From the IMG/VR virus record IMGVR_UViG_3300031569_000029, positions 1-28,698 of that record: a stretch of DNA of 28,698 bases. One strand, written 5' to 3'. Positions 1,295 to 11,478 of the stretch are shown in pieces. A program made the translations under genes and the position numbers. Origin of the DNA: a virus. A model generated the notes under the pieces. The model did not search any database. It was given only the letters and a program-made list of their open reading frames with translations, and was not told the DNA's origin. Positions within the stretch are counted from its first letter, which is position 1. Every line of letters begins with the position of its first letter.

Positions 1295-1870
1295 TTACTT
1301 TCTAAAACTTTTACCCTTGATTATCACTACTTTACATTTCCTTAGTCTATCTAAAGTCCTATCATCATATCTTTCTTTAAGTTCTTTTGGTTTTAAATTA
1401 GTTGTCATAAGCAATGTCTTTGAACTATCCTCAGCATAAGAGATAGCATCTGCAACTGCATCAATCTTAGTTCCATAATCATTCTTAATACTCTCAGTTC
1501 CTAAGTCATCAATGATAATAAAAGGTGATTTACTTCTCTCTATTGCTCCTAATTCTTTTGCAGGTATACTCCTTAAAACTTTATTTGTTTTTGTTCTAAA
1601 TATTGCAGGAATAACATAGTTTAAGATAGTTGATTTACCTAAACCACACTCCCCCATTAGTATTAAACCTCTCCCTTTTGTGTCTACCATCCAGTCAATA
1701 ACATCATCATAATCAGATAGATGGTTGTATGATTCAATAGTCTTGTCGTAATGCTCAAATGCTTTTATAAACATTTCTTTTATTTCTTCTCTAGTACCTA
1801 GCTTAAATCTATTATACTTCTTAGGCTGTAAGAAGTCTGCATTTTTAAATGTATCTTCTATTGTTCTCAT
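1295..1870 (-). CDS. DnaC/IstB-like replicative helicase loader (AAA+ ATPase)
   Basis: This 191-residue P-loop ATPase has Walker A GECGLGKST at residues 73-81 and Walker B FIIIDDLGTE at 117-126 with acidic D121/D122. A sensor-like TTN sits at 156-158, and arginines follow in DDRTLDRL (169-176), as expected for an arginine finger. Length and motif spacing fit phage DnaC/IstB-type loaders, which deliver the host DnaB helicase to the origin. The short N-terminal region would contact the helicase or initiator. The start overlaps the previous stop as TAATG. The gene follows the O-like initiator with one small gene between, giving a lambda O/P-like pair. IstB transposase helpers are excluded by context, since no transposase is present. 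Confidence 0.85.
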   Translation of the reverse strand: MRTIEDTFKNADFLQPKKYNRFKLGTREEIKEMFIKAFEHYDKTIESYNHLSDYDDVIDWMVDTKGRGLILMGECGLGKSTILNYVIPAIFRTKTNKVLRSIPAKELGAIERSKSPFIIIDDLGTESIKNDYGTKIDAVADAISYAEDSSKTLLMTTNLKPKELKERYDDRTLDRLRKCKVVIIKGKSFRK

Positions 1871-2055
1871 TAGTGTATATCATTCATTATACATTCGTGT
1901 TGAAAATCACCATCTTCATTGATTTCATCTAACTGCTTATCAGTCATTGGCTTCCCATTATAGTCTGCACTTACTATGTAAGCATCACAAAAGTCAGGAT
2001 AGTCTTTGAAATCTATACCATCTATTTCAATATTGTCAATTTTTTTATAATCCAT
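1870..2055 (-). CDS. Small acidic hypothetical protein
   Basis: A 61-residue protein from the ATG at 2055, which follows a run of ten A's (AAAAAAAAAACTATG), the A-rich leader typical of this genome. An ATG at 2127 in the same frame would overlap the initiator gene by 62 nt and is less likely. The protein is Asp-rich (IDGIDFKDYPDFCDAYIVSADYNG, then a C-terminus with EDGDF). I see no known domain. Its place between initiator and helicase loader suggests a role in replication or simple cotranslation; the stop overlaps the loader start as TAATG. Confidence 0.5.
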   Translation of the reverse strand: MDYKKIDNIEIDGIDFKDYPDFCDAYIVSADYNGKPMTDKQLDEINEDGDFQHECIMNDIH

Positions 2056-2065
2056 AGTTTTTTTT

Positions 2066-2686
2066 TTAAAATGTTCCATCACCATAATCACCTCCTGCTG
2101 TATGTCTATGTGATGTTGTGTTATCATTATTAGTTCTTCTACTGCTTTTCTCCCAAGTTCTTACACAAGCCTTCCAACTCTTCATTTTGTTTTTACCTAT
2201 TAACCAATCTTTACTTTCATAAAAATCACAAAATGTTTCTGCATCTACATTATTTTTTCTTTCAGTACAATATTCTTTAACTTGAATTATTGTTGGTATT
2301 TTAAAATTACCCTTATTATTAATACTCTTATTATTAATACTAGTATTATTACTCTTTAGCATTTTTGTTAATACCCCTTTGTCATTTTTGCTAAGGGGGG
2401 TGAAACAAATTTGTATATACCTATTAGCAATTTCGTTACTACCTTCCTTGTATGTATAACTAACTGATATATAGCCTCTTTCCTTTAATTCTTTAATCCA
2501 TCTTGAAATAGTTACTTTATTCTTACCATACAACTCTGAGAAGTATTTATTAGAAGCATAACACTCCCCACCCATTGACAGTAGAGATGTTATTTCAGCG
2601 TAAAGAAGTTTAGCATTTGGAGTCAAATCTTTATCATACCTTACACCAGAAGGTATTACAGCATAGAAGTTTGGTTGTTCTTTCAT
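2066..2686 (-). CDS. O-like phage replication initiator with N-terminal winged helix
   Basis: A 206-residue protein from the ATG at 2686 (MKEQPNFYAVIPSGVRYDKD). An upstream ATG at 2734 would encode a terminator-like hairpin and is rejected. Residues about 10-95 form a HTH_36-type winged helix: LTPNAKLLYAEITSL, CYASNKYFSELYGKNK, VTISRWIKELKERGYI, then a beta wing. A low-complexity linker at 108-127 contains SINNK twice, encoded by perfect 15-bp tandem repeats. The C-terminus (130-175) has the phage replication-protein motif VKEYC...FYESKDWLIGKNKMKSWKACVRTWEK. Such proteins bind origin repeats and recruit the helicase loader, here encoded just downstream. This is an inference from motifs and context. 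Confidence 0.8.
   Translation of the reverse strand: MKEQPNFYAVIPSGVRYDKDLTPNAKLLYAEITSLLSMGGECYASNKYFSELYGKNKVTISRWIKELKERGYISVSYTYKEGSNEIANRYIQICFTPLSKNDKGVLTKMLKSNNTSINNKSINNKGNFKIPTIIQVKEYCTERKNNVDAETFCDFYESKDWLIGKNKMKSWKACVRTWEKSSRRTNNDNTTSHRHTAGGDYGDGTF
2312..2348. repeat. Iteron-like tandem repeats inside initiator gene (candidate origin)
   Basis: CTTATTATTAATACT occurs twice in perfect tandem at 2312-2326 and 2327-2341. The second copy runs into AGTATTA, so 2335-2348 is a perfect 14-bp palindrome TAATACTAGTATTA. The 15-bp unit keeps frame and encodes SINNK twice. AT-rich iterons inside the initiator's own gene are the arrangement of the lambda origin. A 6-bp GC stem (CCCCTT at 2374-2379 with AAGGGG at 2393-2398) lies close by. 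Confidence 0.45.
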
Positions 2687-2707
2687 TGTGTTATAGTTTT
2701 TAAAATA

Positions 2708-2731
2708 AGAGGAGGATATTTCACCTCCCCT
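2708..2731 (-). terminator. Terminator- or attenuator-like hairpin before the initiator gene
   Basis: On the minus strand AGGGGAGG, loop TGAAATAT and CCTCCTCT form an 8-bp stem with one G-U pair, followed by TATTTT. It lies between the SSB-like gene (stop at 2744) and the initiator start at 2686. This suggests partial termination or attenuation of initiator expression, or a protective 3' end for the upstream message. Confidence 0.5.
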
Positions 2732-2743
2732 CATATTGTTTAT

Positions 2744-3019
2744 TTAGAATGGTAAGTCATCACCATCATCATTACTAGTTGATTGCTTAGGAGCAGTCTT
2801 ATTAGCTTCTTTAGGTTCAAAATCATTTACATAAGCATAATGTGTCGCACCTTTTTCTGATGGCTCTCTACGCTCTGAAATCACCATTGATACCCAACCA
2901 TTCTTTGAGTTCTTTTGTAATTCATCTAACTTAAAGTTAGCAACCATCATTTCTCCATACTTAGTTGGAATGTTTTTAATACTACTTGGTAAGTAAACTT
3001 TCTCTTTCTTGTCTGTCAT
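2744..3019 (-). CDS. SSB-like single-stranded DNA-binding protein with acidic tip
   Basis: A 91-residue protein with a compact N-terminal region rich in predicted beta strands (KVYLPSSIKNIPTKYGEMMVANF, then GWVSMVISERREPSEKGATHYAYVNDFEPK). A short disordered linker follows, and then the acidic tip DDGDDLPF. An acidic tail ending in L/I-P-F is the hallmark of bacterial and phage SSBs and recruits replication and repair partners. The body is shorter than a standard OB-fold SSB (about 110 residues before the tail), but similar small proteins occur in Bacteroidota phages. It sits between the DnaA-like and initiator genes, consistent with coating origin ssDNA. The start overlaps the DnaA-like gene by 38 nt. 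Confidence 0.65.
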   Translation of the reverse strand: MTDKKEKVYLPSSIKNIPTKYGEMMVANFKLDELQKNSKNGWVSMVISERREPSEKGATHYAYVNDFEPKEANKTAPKQSTSNDDGDDLPF

Positions 3020-3422
3020 TTTTTTCTTTTTTAATTTTATATAATTTAGTTAATGAATCCTTTATTTTAATTTGTCTTTCTTCTAATCCTAATATCTCCT
3101 CTTCTAACTCAACCTCAATAACTCTGTTCTCTACTCTATTGAACGCTTCAGAATCATGTGAATAATTACTATAGAAAAACTCAAACTTTCTACTATGATG
3201 TATTATAGATGAGTGATGTAAGTTGGTAATTTTTGCAATCTGCATTATAGTTAATCCAAACATATTCCTAAGGATATATATATACATTCTTTTAGCAAAT
3301 ATAATATCTTTCTTTCTGCTACCTAAAAACATTTTATCTTTATCTATATCATAAATATCTGCTAATTCATTAAGAATTATATTATGATAATAGTCGCTAA
3401 ATTTTAATCTTCTTCTTCTCAT
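2982..3422 (-). CDS. Stand-alone DnaA domain IV-like DNA-binding protein
   Basis: A 146-residue protein. Residues about 13-85 match the DnaA C-terminal domain: a first helix IILNELADIYDID, the basic GSRKKDIIFAKRMYIYILRNMFGLTIMQIAKI, and the signature-like NLHHSSIIHHSRKFE, compared with DHTTVxHAxRKI in DnaA. In DnaA this domain reads the DnaA box. The AAA+ domain is absent, so it cannot act as a full initiator. The C-terminal half is a charged helix with coiled-coil character (VENRVIEVELEEEILGLEERQIKIKDSLTKLYKIKKEK). It may bind DnaA-box-like sites in host or phage DNA, compete with host DnaA, or aid the neighbouring initiator. The N-terminus is very basic (MRRRRLKF). Confidence 0.75.
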   Translation of the reverse strand: MRRRRLKFSDYYHNIILNELADIYDIDKDKMFLGSRKKDIIFAKRMYIYILRNMFGLTIMQIAKITNLHHSSIIHHSRKFEFFYSNYSHDSEAFNRVENRVIEVELEEEILGLEERQIKIKDSLTKLYKIKKEKNDRQERESLLTK

Positions 3423-4643: not shown

Positions 4644-4871
4644 TTACAATGTATATTCTGATATACTAGACATCCTAGTAGAACCATTACGATTAGTGTA
4701 CCTAGTAGGAACATCTACTCTCTTAGATTGTATATTATGACCTTGATTCCTTAATGAATGTATGACTGCTGCTAATCTGTAAGCACCATATTCATTAATA
4801 GCTTCTTTTTGTGTTAATCTTCTACCATCTTTTAAGTGTTGTAGAATATCACTTGATTGTGTTTTTGACAT
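4644..4871 (-). CDS. HTH_39-type helix-turn-helix protein
   Basis: A 75-residue protein with the phage helix-turn-helix pattern: SSDILQHLKDGRRLTQKEAINEYGAYRLAAVIHSLRNQGHNI, then a beta tail TRYTNRNGSTRMSSISEYTL. This is the layout of PF14090 (ILxxLxxGxxITxxEAxxxYGxxRLAAxIxxLRxxGxxI). It is the first gene after the best candidate promoter (4900-4929), so it is probably an early regulator and may act on that promoter. Confidence 0.75.
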   Translation of the reverse strand: MSKTQSSDILQHLKDGRRLTQKEAINEYGAYRLAAVIHSLRNQGHNIQSKRVDVPTRYTNRNGSTRMSSISEYTL

Positions 4872-4899: not shown

Positions 4900-4938
4900 C
4901 AAAGATATAAAATTGGAATTACCTACCAAAACTTTTTT
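4900..4938 (-). promoter_or_regulatory. Candidate promoter of the early/replication operon
   Basis: The minus strand reads TTTTGG (TTG at 4929-4927), a 19-nt spacer, then TATCTTTG (4907-4900). This is an exact match to the Bacteroidota TTG-N17-23-TAnnTTTG promoter. It lies 28 nt upstream of the HTH_39 gene start at 4871. The -33 part sits in AAAGTTTTGGTAGGTAATT, a motif repeated almost exactly near 17.85 kb. Confidence 0.65.
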
Positions 4939-7921: not shown

Positions 7922-9520
7922 TTATGTTGTTAATGCTATTAATTCTGAGTCTGTTAATGCTGTTTTAAATACTTGTAGTTGTTTTACTTTTGAAGGGAAA
8001 GTTCCACTCCCAACAGGAAAATCAAATCTTATCTGATTCAAAACATCTGCACCGAAAATAGTGCTATTCGTATCAGTTCCAACTTCTATACCATTAATCC
8101 AAAAAGCATAATCTCCACTTTTCCATTTAATAGCATACTTATTATAATCAGTTGTATCTGTTATAGCTTTCTCTATAGTATTTATAGTAGACCCTCCAAC
8201 TCTTGTTCTGCATAAAACTCTATTTGAGGTACTCATAAATCTAAAATAAATATAATCATCAAGAGGTGTAGTGCTACTGCTTATTGAAAGGTATCTATTT
8301 GTCCCATCATTAGCAAGTGCAGCCATCTCAACAAACAAAACCCCTTCCTCACTATTTATCAAATTACTAATACCTGTCTTTGAGTATTGGTCTTGTACTC
8401 TTGTAACTGTAGAACCATCTGTAGGTATGTAGGATGTTGCGTAAGAGCCTTCTTCTATTTGTGTTCCCCAATATTCTGTGTATTGAGATATGTCCCCCAC
8501 ATAACTGCTTAAATCTTTTATAGGTAAGTATATCGACACAGCCCCTGTACTATTTGCAGTAGCAGAAAAACCAACTCTATACCAACCATTACCTGCATCT
8601 TCCATAAAATTACTGCCTGAAATAAAATCTGAACCACTTGGACTTGTACTTTCTGTTGAGAATGTAATATTTATTGATGCTGATATCCTACTTGACTGAG
8701 TGTAAACTTTTACTAAATCATAAGTTCCTTTTTTGATGTAAAATGAAACGGCATATATAGTACCACTTACTACTGATGACTCATAAGAAGTTCCATAGTG
8801 TTGAGAGTTACTTGTTGTTTCATTTATTTTTAATCCATTTAAAGTTCCATCAGGGCTAATAGTATTTGATAATGTAACATTTGTAGTTGCTTGAATTTCC
8901 TCACTATAAGTAATCAAATTTGTTCTCTCAGGCTCTACTAATAATGAAGAAGCAGTACCATCATAATCTACTCTTGCAAGATTGTTTGCTGTGTATTCTT
9001 TTACTGACACGTTAGATATTGAACCAATAAAAGCAGTTCCGTAAAGTTCTATGACATTTTGATTTACCTTTGTTATTATCTGAGTGTAAGTGCCTACTCC
9101 TGAAACTGCTGTGCCTCCCGTTCCATTATAACCAAATCTTGGAGTTAAAAGTCCTGAAGTATAATCTACAATTTCAAAAGTTATTTTATAAGTAACTGAT
9201 GGTGTTATAACTGAAGAAGATTGTACTATACTTAAAGTTGCCGTAGCATCTCTTGAAAGTTTATCTCCTGCAATAGAAATTCCTGTTGCAGATGTGTTCC
9301 AATCAGAATCTGTAGCAAAATCTCCATTAACTACTTCCTCACTACCCAACAACTCAACAGTTTCAACAAGTCCACTAGAATTAACTCTAGTACCTGCTGA
9401 TGCTCTTGTCATTGTTATTGGTTGAGGTACGAATCTTGTACCTGCTGTACTATAGCCTAAAAGATTATCTTCTTTTATTGCCCAATTACTATTTCCTATT
9501 TGTAAACTTGGATTTGCCAT
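7922..9520 (-). CDS. Tail appendage with carbohydrate-binding and LamG-like domains
   Basis: A 532-residue modular protein. After a short N-terminus come a jelly-roll-like module opening EEVVNGDFATDSDWN and ending SNVSVKEY (about 80-178), a second module NLITYSEEIQ...ISPDGTLNGLKI (about 200-365), and a concanavalin/LamG-like domain (about 370-532). The last has the pattern LINSEEGVLFVEMA...DYNKYAIKW...FWINGIEVG...KVKQLQVFKTALTDSE. It is a paralogue of the next gene upstream and overlaps it by one base. Such domains bind glycans, so host-surface recognition is the likely role. Start at 9520 follows an A/T leader. Confidence 0.7.
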   Translation of the reverse strand: MANPSLQIGNSNWAIKEDNLLGYSTAGTRFVPQPITMTRASAGTRVNSSGLVETVELLGSEEVVNGDFATDSDWNTSATGISIAGDKLSRDATATLSIVQSSSVITPSVTYKITFEIVDYTSGLLTPRFGYNGTGGTAVSGVGTYTQIITKVNQNVIELYGTAFIGSISNVSVKEYTANNLARVDYDGTASSLLVEPERTNLITYSEEIQATTNVTLSNTISPDGTLNGLKINETTSNSQHYGTSYESSVVSGTIYAVSFYIKKGTYDLVKVYTQSSRISASINITFSTESTSPSGSDFISGSNFMEDAGNGWYRVGFSATANSTGAVSIYLPIKDLSSYVGDISQYTEYWGTQIEEGSYATSYIPTDGSTVTRVQDQYSKTGISNLINSEEGVLFVEMAALANDGTNRYLSISSSTTPLDDYIYFRFMSTSNRVLCRTRVGGSTINTIEKAITDTTDYNKYAIKWKSGDYAFWINGIEVGTDTNSTIFGADVLNQIRFDFPVGSGTFPSKVKQLQVFKTALTDSELIALTT

Positions 9521-11478
9521 TATTGTATTGTATATGTTAATGCACTAGCCATCTCTGCATAAGATTCATAAAAGTCAGTACCTGATTCTCCTGTTAGTTG
9601 TAAGAGTTGCTCATCTGTTAGTGCTGTATCGTAGACTTGTAGTTGTTTTACTTTGCCGTAGAAAGGATTAAGCTCATCTGCTATATCAAGACCAAGTCTA
9701 TTAAGTGTTCCTGAAGGTATTACGTTCGTATCTGCATTAGTCAATATCTCCACCCCATTTGCCCAAACATCTACAGTAGTAGAATTGTATCTTATTGCTA
9801 ATTTGTTAAAATCAGTAATAGTTATGCTTGAAGTTGCTAGATTAGTTGTTCTAGTACCATTTACATATTTTTGAAAATAAACACTTCCGTTAGTATGATA
9901 TAATATTCTTAGCCCATAACTACTGCTCGCACCATTAGTTATAGATATATATTGCGTTGCACTTCCTGTACCAAAACTAGCCATCTCTAAAAACAAAACC
10001 CCCTCTGTACTATTAATCAAACTACCTATACCATCTCTTGTGAAGATGTCTTGGTTTCTTGTTACTGTACTTCCTGATGTTGGAATCAGACTCGTTGGAT
10101 ATGAGCCAACTTCGTGTTGCATACCATAAAAAAGTATATCATTTGTTTCTGATACTGATGCACCTCTTAGTCCCCAAGTTACAGTAGAGAAAGTTTCGGT
10201 ATATTCAAATCTTTGCCATTCTTGAGTTGCTGTTTTGTCTGTGGATTGAGTTGTGTTTCCGTTTCCAAAAAATCTAAATTTTTGGTCTGAACCTGTATTT
10301 GATTTTGCATAAATACTTATTGTATTTTCTCCTGCTGAACCTAACCCACTTATATAAAGAAGACTTGCATTTGAAGTAGAAACACCTCTAAACGCATTTT
10401 GTGTTCCATCAGGAGATATTGCATAGTCATCAGTTGTAGTCCAAAGCGAATTTGACCAAGTTGATGCATTCTCACTATAAGGAAATAAATTTGTTCTCTG
10501 TGGCTCTGCTAATATATGTGGACAACCTCCTCCTGTGTAGTCTATACGAGGTACGTTATCTCTTGTAACTTCTTTTACTGTAACATCATCTATCGTGCCT
10601 TCGTAACTATAAGCATAAAACCCTATCGCACTATTTGAAGGAGAAGTTACAGTAAATGTTTGTACCTCTAAACCTGTACCTGTGTTAAGCGTATATATAG
10701 TACTTGATGTATAGGAAGTGCCATTTTTAACGAATAAAGTACCACCAACTCTATTACTACTGAAAGAAATTGTATAGGTTTTAGTAGCAACTAAACCTAA
10801 ATCTTGAGTTAATAAATTTGAGGTAGATGTTGAACCATCTGCTTCGGCTACACCAACTCCAAGACTCCAACCCCCTCCAAAACTCCAAGCAGTAGTGCCT
10901 GAAGGAAAATCTCCATCAGTTACTTCTTCCCCACCTATAACCTCAGCATAATTTACTAAACCATTCTCATCTACTCTTGTTGCAGCAGTTGCTCTAGTAA
11001 CATCCATATCTGCTGATGTGTATTCTTTTACTGATATGTTGTCAATATTAAAATTACCATTAGTAGTTGCTGATGACAAAAGGAAATAGCCATTTGATGC
11101 ACCTGTACTTATAATCCAAGTTTTTGTTCCATTTGATGTAAAACTCTCATTACTTGTACTGTTTTGACTACTTCCTGACCAAGCTGTTACATTCCCTGAA
11201 GAATAATTACTAACCTCTGCTGTTATTTTATATTGCGTATTTGCTTGAAAAACTGCTGCTTGATATATACCATTATTATTTGCTGTTGAATTATTAAATA
11301 TAGCATTACCACCACTAATTGTTACTCCTGTGGCTTTACTCCAATCGCTATCAGTAGCAAAATCTCCATTAGTTACAAGTTCAGCACCCTCAGTAGGTAC
11401 AGGAATAACTGCATACAATTCTCCTGCCTTATATCCGTTAGGAGTTACTACTATACTAACATCATCTAATAAACTCAT
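9520..11478 (-). CDS. Tail appendage with two jelly-roll modules and a LamG-like domain
   Basis: A 652-residue paralogue of the 7922-9520 product, with one extra module. Two GDF-type jelly-roll modules open with ELVTNGDFATDSDWS and EEVTDGDFPSGTTAW and end DNISVKEYT and DDVTVKEVT. A NLFPYSEN...ISPDGTQNAFRG module follows, and then a LamG-like domain (about 475-630) with LINSTEGVLFLEMA and KVKQLQVYDTALTDEQ. A short tail, DFYESYAEMASALTYTIQ, is absent from the paralogue. The ATG overlaps the previous stop as ATGA. Probably a receptor-binding or side-fibre protein that arose by duplication and module gain. Confidence 0.7.
   Translation of the reverse strand: MSLLDDVSIVVTPNGYKAGELYAVIPVPTEGAELVTNGDFATDSDWSKATGVTISGGNAIFNNSTANNNGIYQAAVFQANTQYKITAEVSNYSSGNVTAWSGSSQNSTSNESFTSNGTKTWIISTGASNGYFLLSSATTNGNFNIDNISVKEYTSADMDVTRATAATRVDENGLVNYAEVIGGEEVTDGDFPSGTTAWSFGGGWSLGVGVAEADGSTSTSNLLTQDLGLVATKTYTISFSSNRVGGTLFVKNGTSYTSSTIYTLNTGTGLEVQTFTVTSPSNSAIGFYAYSYEGTIDDVTVKEVTRDNVPRIDYTGGGCPHILAEPQRTNLFPYSENASTWSNSLWTTTDDYAISPDGTQNAFRGVSTSNASLLYISGLGSAGENTISIYAKSNTGSDQKFRFFGNGNTTQSTDKTATQEWQRFEYTETFSTVTWGLRGASVSETNDILFYGMQHEVGSYPTSLIPTSGSTVTRNQDIFTRDGIGSLINSTEGVLFLEMASFGTGSATQYISITNGASSSYGLRILYHTNGSVYFQKYVNGTRTTNLATSSITITDFNKLAIRYNSTTVDVWANGVEILTNADTNVIPSGTLNRLGLDIADELNPFYGKVKQLQVYDTALTDEQLLQLTGESGTDFYESYAEMASALTYTIQ

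Follow-up and report, generated by a model that had tools for sequence, protein, structure and literature searches.

The window analysed here is a linear-class IMG/VR virus contig of 28,698 bp, possibly incomplete, on which all recognisable genes lie on the minus strand. At its centre of interest is a gene for a replication initiator, followed downstream by a small ORF, the start of which overlaps the 3′ end of the initiator gene (2066-2127, minus strand), and by a gene encoding a DnaC-like helicase loader (Table 1). The locus thus has the context of a replication module, and many relatives of the initiator likewise have DnaC or DnaB genes downstream. Translation of the initiator probably begins at Met17 (2686) rather than at the upstream ATG at 2734, because many aligned relatives have a methionine at this position. 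The N-terminal part gave a significant match to the HTH_36 profile (PF13730; E=1e-14, with a score of 54.5 bits where the cut-off is 25), and the protein matched phrog_270 (E=2e-24) and phrog_19658 ('replication initiation protein'), with the C-terminal part matching phrog_15768 (E=4e-21). An AlphaFold2 model of the initiator contained a winged helix (residues 29-109), a linker with pLDDT below 50 (residues 117-141) and a C-domain (residues 149-202), and placed residues 74 and 78 in the opening turns of the recognition helix.

Table 1. Features of the initiator locus, in window coordinates.
Feature	Position	Strand	Sequence	Remarks
DnaC-like helicase loader gene	1295..1870	-		downstream of initiator; phrog_3277, E=6e-20
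Small 85-aa ORF	1870..2127	-		between initiator and loader; phrog_28889, E=9e-6
Initiator gene	2066..2734	-		HTH_36 winged-helix N-domain, disordered linker and C-terminal domain
Recognition helix H3 codons	2480..2518	-		residues 73-85; covarying Val74, Ser77 and Arg78; AlphaFold2 model and covariation
Putative iteron 4 (outermost)	2424..2443	-	GGTAGTAACGAAATTGCTAA	PWM rank 2/57,360; 22 bp from iteron 1
Putative iteron 1	2402..2421	-	GGTATATACAAATTTGTTTC	PWM rank 3/57,360; 23-bp phase; overlaps RYI codons
Putative iteron 2	2379..2398	-	CCCCTTAGCAAAAATGACAA	PWM rank 18/57,360; helix-matched PWM rank 1; most of the GC stem
Putative iteron 3	2356..2375	-	GGTATTAACAAAAATGCTAA	PWM rank 1/57,360; helix-matched PWM rank 2; adjoins A+T-rich segment
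A+T-rich segment, probable DNA unwinding element	2312..2353	-		36/42 A+T; contains both 15-mers and the palindrome
Two perfect 15-bp tandem repeats	2312-2326 and 2327-2341	+	CTTATTATTAATACT	p=0.004 against synonymous shuffles
Perfect 14-bp palindrome	2335..2348		TAATACTAGTATTA	longest in window; nearest clade only
GC stem	2374..2398		CCCCTTTGTCATTTTTGCTAAGGGG	iteron 2 and first bases of iteron 3

A stand-alone protein resembling DnaA domain IV is encoded two genes upstream of the initiator, at 2982-3422 on the minus strand (PF08299, E=8e-10; motif HHSSIIHHS), and the only DnaA-box-like site of the searched pattern, TTATTCACA, lies inside this gene at 3165 (minus strand). Further away, two adjacent large proteins (7922-9520 and 9520-11478, minus strand) have repeated motifs in common, e.g. 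VEPERTNL / AEPQRTNL and STVTR.QD; the pair resembles a tandemly duplicated tail or receptor-binding protein. A search of the window against Rfam returned zero matches.

The host of the phage is probably a marine member of the Bacteroidota, because a Shine-Dalgarno-like motif was present at 0 of 34 gene starts in the window and a promoter-like site of the Bacteroidota-typical form TTTG-N19-TATCTTTG was found at 4907 (minus strand), ahead of the early gene at 4871. Despite these Bacteroidota-pointing gene starts and promoter, the nearest initiator N-domains among named phages were those of Lactobacillus phages. A scan of a genome collection for named hosts gave six matches, all in Bacillaceae and none in a Bacteroidota genome. 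Among the structural genes, the capsid had no match and the portal a remote one, and Cellulophaga phage phi39:1 had no portal match.

Phased repeats in the linker-coding stretch

The original prediction had located a replication origin of the lambda O/P kind inside the initiator gene, and had pointed to a pair of 15-mers, a palindrome and a GC stem as its likely parts. All three features are present as described, including the in-frame coding of SINNK twice by the 15-mers (residues 132-141). The CTTATTATTAATACT pair is the sole perfect tandem repeat of period 10-40 in the window, and a tandem repeat of such strength was rare among 500 synonymous-codon shuffles of the initiator gene (p=0.004).

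Beside the 15-mers and the palindrome we identified four phased 20-bp iterons with a spacing of 22-23-23 bp, which are most likely the sites bound by the initiator (Table 1). Three of them were the top-ranked positions of the window when scored with a PWM trained without the window's own clade. The two arms of each iteron match at three to five of six positions about the dyad, and the iterons starting at 2421, 2398 and 2375 each fall in a different reading frame. The outer side of iteron 2 is degenerate, with CCCC and not GGTA, and iteron 1 is weak beyond its core. Within the window alone the 23-bp period was not significant against synonymous shuffles (p=0.10), and the case for the iterons therefore rests on the relatives.

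Across 87 distinct related initiator genes, DNA repeats were nearly always found at the end of the N-domain and in the linker, in the same order: first units of about 20 bp with a period of 22-24, then A+T-rich repeats of 12, 15, 21 or 27 bp. The units of the first kind follow a pattern of (GG or CC)TA and then two 6-bp arms flanking an A-rich centre. In a larger set of 390 loci with a recognisable helix, which reduced to 217 distinct N-domains, a phased downstream iteron was present in 201 of 217 distinct initiators. The units of relatives are dyadic about one centre, with 57.5% complementary positions vs 39.7% (sd 1.4) between units, and no other dyad centre exceeds its control by nearly as much. 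In the relatives L029 and L033 a 23-bp tandem repeat, GGTATTAGCAAAAATGATAAAGA / GGTATTAACAAAAATGCTAAAGA, has copies that encode different peptides, as a period of 23 bp does not keep the frame.

The original prediction had proposed that homologous initiators be aligned, and this alignment revealed conservation of the DNA beyond codon needs. When each gene was compared with 500 synonymous shuffles of itself, 22 or 23 emerged as the best out-of-frame period in many genes across clades, and at least ten genes reached p=0.002-0.006 at this period (L029, L033, L045, L041, L058, R29.1, B1578, EW, SP120 and SAP71). The positive control Tuc2009, the record of which states that the rep gene contains the origin, gave p=0.002 for its 22-bp and its 15-bp series each; the repeats of a second control, TP901-1, were missed (p=0.19), so the shuffle test overlooks some real origins. 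At conserved residues in four clades, the iteron stretch had 2.4-7.6% synonymous differences, the N-domain 13-40% and the C-domain 15-29%, which places synonymous change in the iteron stretch 4-12 times below that of the N-domain. The A+T-rich segment showed 2.4-14.5% in the same comparison.

The segment that adjoins iteron 3 is a probable DNA unwinding element, judged by its composition and predicted stability: of all distinct 40-mers in the window, the third least stable lies within it. Among 197 relatives, the 42 nt past the last iteron averaged 83% A+T vs 69% for the gene as a whole, were richer in A+T than the gene mean in 192, and formed the least stable 42-mer of the gene in 121. A+T richness is constant among relatives while the repeat unit varies, and the 15-mers, which the original prediction took for likely binding sites, belong to this segment.

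The metagenomic loci L204 and L213 have seven phased (GG/CC)TA units vs the usual three or four, which suggests array expansion. Lactococcus phage 63301 has a GGIKENF peptide and a GGTATTAAAGAAAACTTTAA iteron as in marine clade B phages, and its initiator is only about 34% identical to that of the window. One further locus (L043) has a stop inside the stretch chosen for alignment.

Recognition helix and iteron bases

Initiator and putative target lie within one gene, and hundreds of natural protein-DNA pairs can therefore be read directly. Covariation between the N-domain and the iteron half-site (mutual information, APC) was highest for residue 78 with position 9 and second highest for residue 74 with position 7, in both half-sites. 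Among pairs of initiators with less than 62% N-domain identity outside the helix, iteron identity was 0.91 where residues 74, 77 and 78 agreed, 0.64 where one of them differed and 0.43 where two or three differed, and the trend was repeated in every bin of N-domain identity. With one representative per cluster the association of helix and iteron held when 32 or 27 clusters were kept (p=0.0002 to 0.009), but was weaker at 18 single-linkage clusters (65%; p=0.008 to 0.07, with p=0.07 for residue 78), so the strength of the covariation depends on how strictly relatedness is removed. Columns 38, 62, 80 and 88 also correlate with iteron bases, and part of the signal is therefore shared ancestry.

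The pairs read as a simple set of rules, which we offer as a putative code. Arg78 would specify C at half-site base 9, and Lys78 or Asn78 would specify A; Val74 would specify A and Glu74 G at base 7, with Arg74 probably also specifying G; Ser77 would usually go with T at base 5, and Gln77 with G or C. Two results bear on these rules. A helix-matched PWM was trained on five genes with V74/S77/R78 that do not belong to the window's clade (four from Lactobacillus/Staphylococcus phages and one from a metagenomic phage), and among about 57,000 window positions it scored iterons 2 and 3 highest; when 15 other helix classes were tried, E/S/R, which has Arg78 in common, was the only one to come close (ranks 2 and 12). 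The rules of the covariation table were also applied to ten newly fetched phages, with units read by eye, and three of these were left unscored (two split genes without iterons there and one helix that was not identified automatically). In this hold-out 11 of 12 predictions were right: Arg78 to C at position 9 in 4/4, Ser77 to T at position 5 in 4/5 (the exception being phi39:1), Gln77 to G or C in 1/1, and Val74 to A and Glu74 to G at position 7 in 1/1 each.

We consider it likely that the HTH_36 code is compact and portable, with residue 78 setting base 9, residue 74 setting base 7 and residue 77 influencing base 5, that N-domain and origin move and diverge together as one cassette, among phages of Bacteroidota, Bacillota and Fusobacteriota as well as into plasmids, and that an origin of this kind can be predicted from three initiator residues. 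The arrangement of an origin inside an initiator gene is already known; the helix-to-iteron code is the new element, and a targeted literature search, to which subscription papers were mostly out of reach, found no earlier description of it. To our knowledge, mapped origins exist for few phages and for none of the marine Bacteroidota phages. If the code holds at the bench, sequence would be enough to predict origins in some plasmids and in a large group of phages.

A candidate origin and competing readings

Very probably, the phage starts its replication at 2312-2443, an origin that lies within its HTH_36-type initiator gene. The sites with their phasing and dyad symmetry, the DNA-level conservation, the covariation with the helix and the low duplex stability nearby can all be read from the sequence; for binding, melting, helicase loading and initiation we draw on relatives and the literature. 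In the proposed model, dimers of the winged-helix N-domain would bind the four phased dyad iterons, about two helical turns apart, and their occupancy would open the adjacent A+T-rich segment with its 15-mers and palindrome. The initiator C-domain and the DnaC-like loader might then place the replicative helicase. The same DNA would double as the code for a flexible interdomain linker; a DNA signal can occupy this stretch because the linker tolerates almost any sequence. Against the model stand the Lactobacillus phages Ld3, Lc-Nu and phiLdb (L161, L421 and L422), in which the N-domain forms a separate ORF of about 96-106 aa, the end of which is without iterons. The layout first proposed, an origin inside the initiator gene and beside the loader gene, is strongly supported, although its parts had been misassigned. 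GC skew, which had been put forward as a further check, gave no decision either way: the cumulative curve declines monotonically along the whole window, and this is uninformative on an origin because nearly all window genes point one way.

Four other readings were weighed. It is unlikely that the 15-mer repeat (SINNK twice) reflects only the neutral growth of a low-complexity linker by slippage and has no separate function as DNA. The varying unit length among relatives, the imperfect repeat in relative L002 and the disordered linker of the AlphaFold2 model would all fit such an origin of the repeat, but synonymous sites are suppressed there too (2.4% vs 12.6-15.4% in the window's clade), and the A+T excess past the last iteron is near universal. 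The 15-mers could have arisen by slippage and then been kept for their A+T content.

Quite unlikely, in our judgement, is that the iterons serve the initiator for autoregulation only, acting as a roadblock within its coding region, while the true origin lies in another part of the phage. Evidence for binding sites shows recognition, not replication, and a contig classed as linear may be incomplete; however, relatives keep the A+T richness of the adjoining segment, the rest of the window yielded no iteron cluster of greater strength, and the layout is that of the tested origins of lambda (PMC7466680), SPP1 oriL (PMC6316719), Tuc2009/TP901-1 (PMC8965321) and pSK41 (PMC5703833).

There is very little chance that, as the original prediction had it, the initiator binds the 15-mers as its iterons and the GC stem works as a hairpin. 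Perfect repeats are unusual for the window, but ten relatives with a near-identical recognition helix lack the 15-mer pair, the palindrome and the stem yet keep the iterons, and the helix-matched PWM picks iterons 2 and 3 instead; the 15-mers were rejected as binding sites on these grounds. The stem is the junction of iterons 2 and 3 (CCCC..GGGG), found like the palindrome in the nearest clade only, and with its unremarkable folding (DNA fold z about -1.6 on either strand) and its absence from near relatives it was rejected as a conserved hairpin. Least probable of all, and extremely unlikely, is selection on the protein for peptide motifs such as GGIKEN or SINNK: several clades do have an in-frame 24-bp period encoding GGIKEN twice, but the window and its clade read the same DNA word in different frames to give different peptides, synonymous sites are suppressed, and a conserved peptide with freely varying codons was not seen. 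In the nested origin that we favour, a single piece of DNA would clearly be under selection in two roles, as a site for protein binding and as the code for a linker, and its iterons run regardless of frame.

Counterparts in phages and plasmids

The closest counterpart in layout is the lambda origin within gene O, which has four annotated dyad iterons of about 18 bp at a spacing of 20-24 in mid-gene, an A+T-rich tract downstream and then a helicase-loading gene (PMC7466680). The window shares with it the phased mid-gene repeats, the inverted-repeat form of the iterons and an adjacent, easily melted A+T-rich segment. In lambda the O protein, a dimer, binds iterons that are each an inverted repeat, and two iterons beside the A+T-rich tract make up the minimal unwinding unit (PMC7466680). 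In contrast, the lambda iterons are of the TCCCTC-AAAA-GAGGGA type, unrelated in sequence, and the lambda loader is P whereas that of the window is DnaC-like. The initiator had been called O-like, a label that did not hold: lambda O-like families matched it weakly (phrog_678, E=2e-9; phrog_391 and phrog_345, E>1e-4) and were outscored by phrog_270 and phrog_19658.

SPP1 oriL in gene 38 also combines direct repeats and an A+T-rich unwinding element within an initiator gene (PMC6316719), a likeness drawn from its description; unlike the window, SPP1 has a second origin, oriR. In Tuc2009 and TP901-1 a direct-repeat origin lies inside the replisome organizer gene and is bound by the gene's own product (PMC8965321), whereas the proteins are barely similar to the window initiator (E 0.008 and 1.1, respectively) and the repeats are unrelated in sequence. 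Direct homologues of the window initiator over the N-domain (53-58%), to which the detected similarity is confined, were found in Lactobacillus phages PMBT4 and c5 and in Cellulophaga phage phi39:1. The iteron core TATTAACAAAAATG of PMBT4 and c5 is identical to that of iteron 3, and their helix residues are V/S/R as in the window. In contrast, phi39:1 has helix residues R/S/R, the iteron ACGACA-AAAT-TGTC and a DnaB helicase gene downstream.

Plasmid initiators of the RepA_N group (pSK41 type) gave the best fold matches to the window initiator, namely 5kbj, a plasmid Rep-DNA complex, 4pql and 4pt7. The likeness is only a weak one (E=4.5e-3; target TM 0.49), and by sequence the window initiator falls outside RepA_N (PF06970): it had zero matches to that Pfam family, and a profile search of PDB by sequence found nothing. 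Plasmid copy control differs. The RepA_N group has its origin within the rep gene; in pSK41, four Rep boxes lie there and the linker encoded by the origin is dispensable in trans (PMC5703833). In plasmid pPR9, an HTH_36 (PF13730) N-domain together with its origin region replaces the RepA_N counterpart and supports replication (PMC5703833), and this hybrid Rep comes closest to an experimental test of the HTH_36 initiator/origin family.
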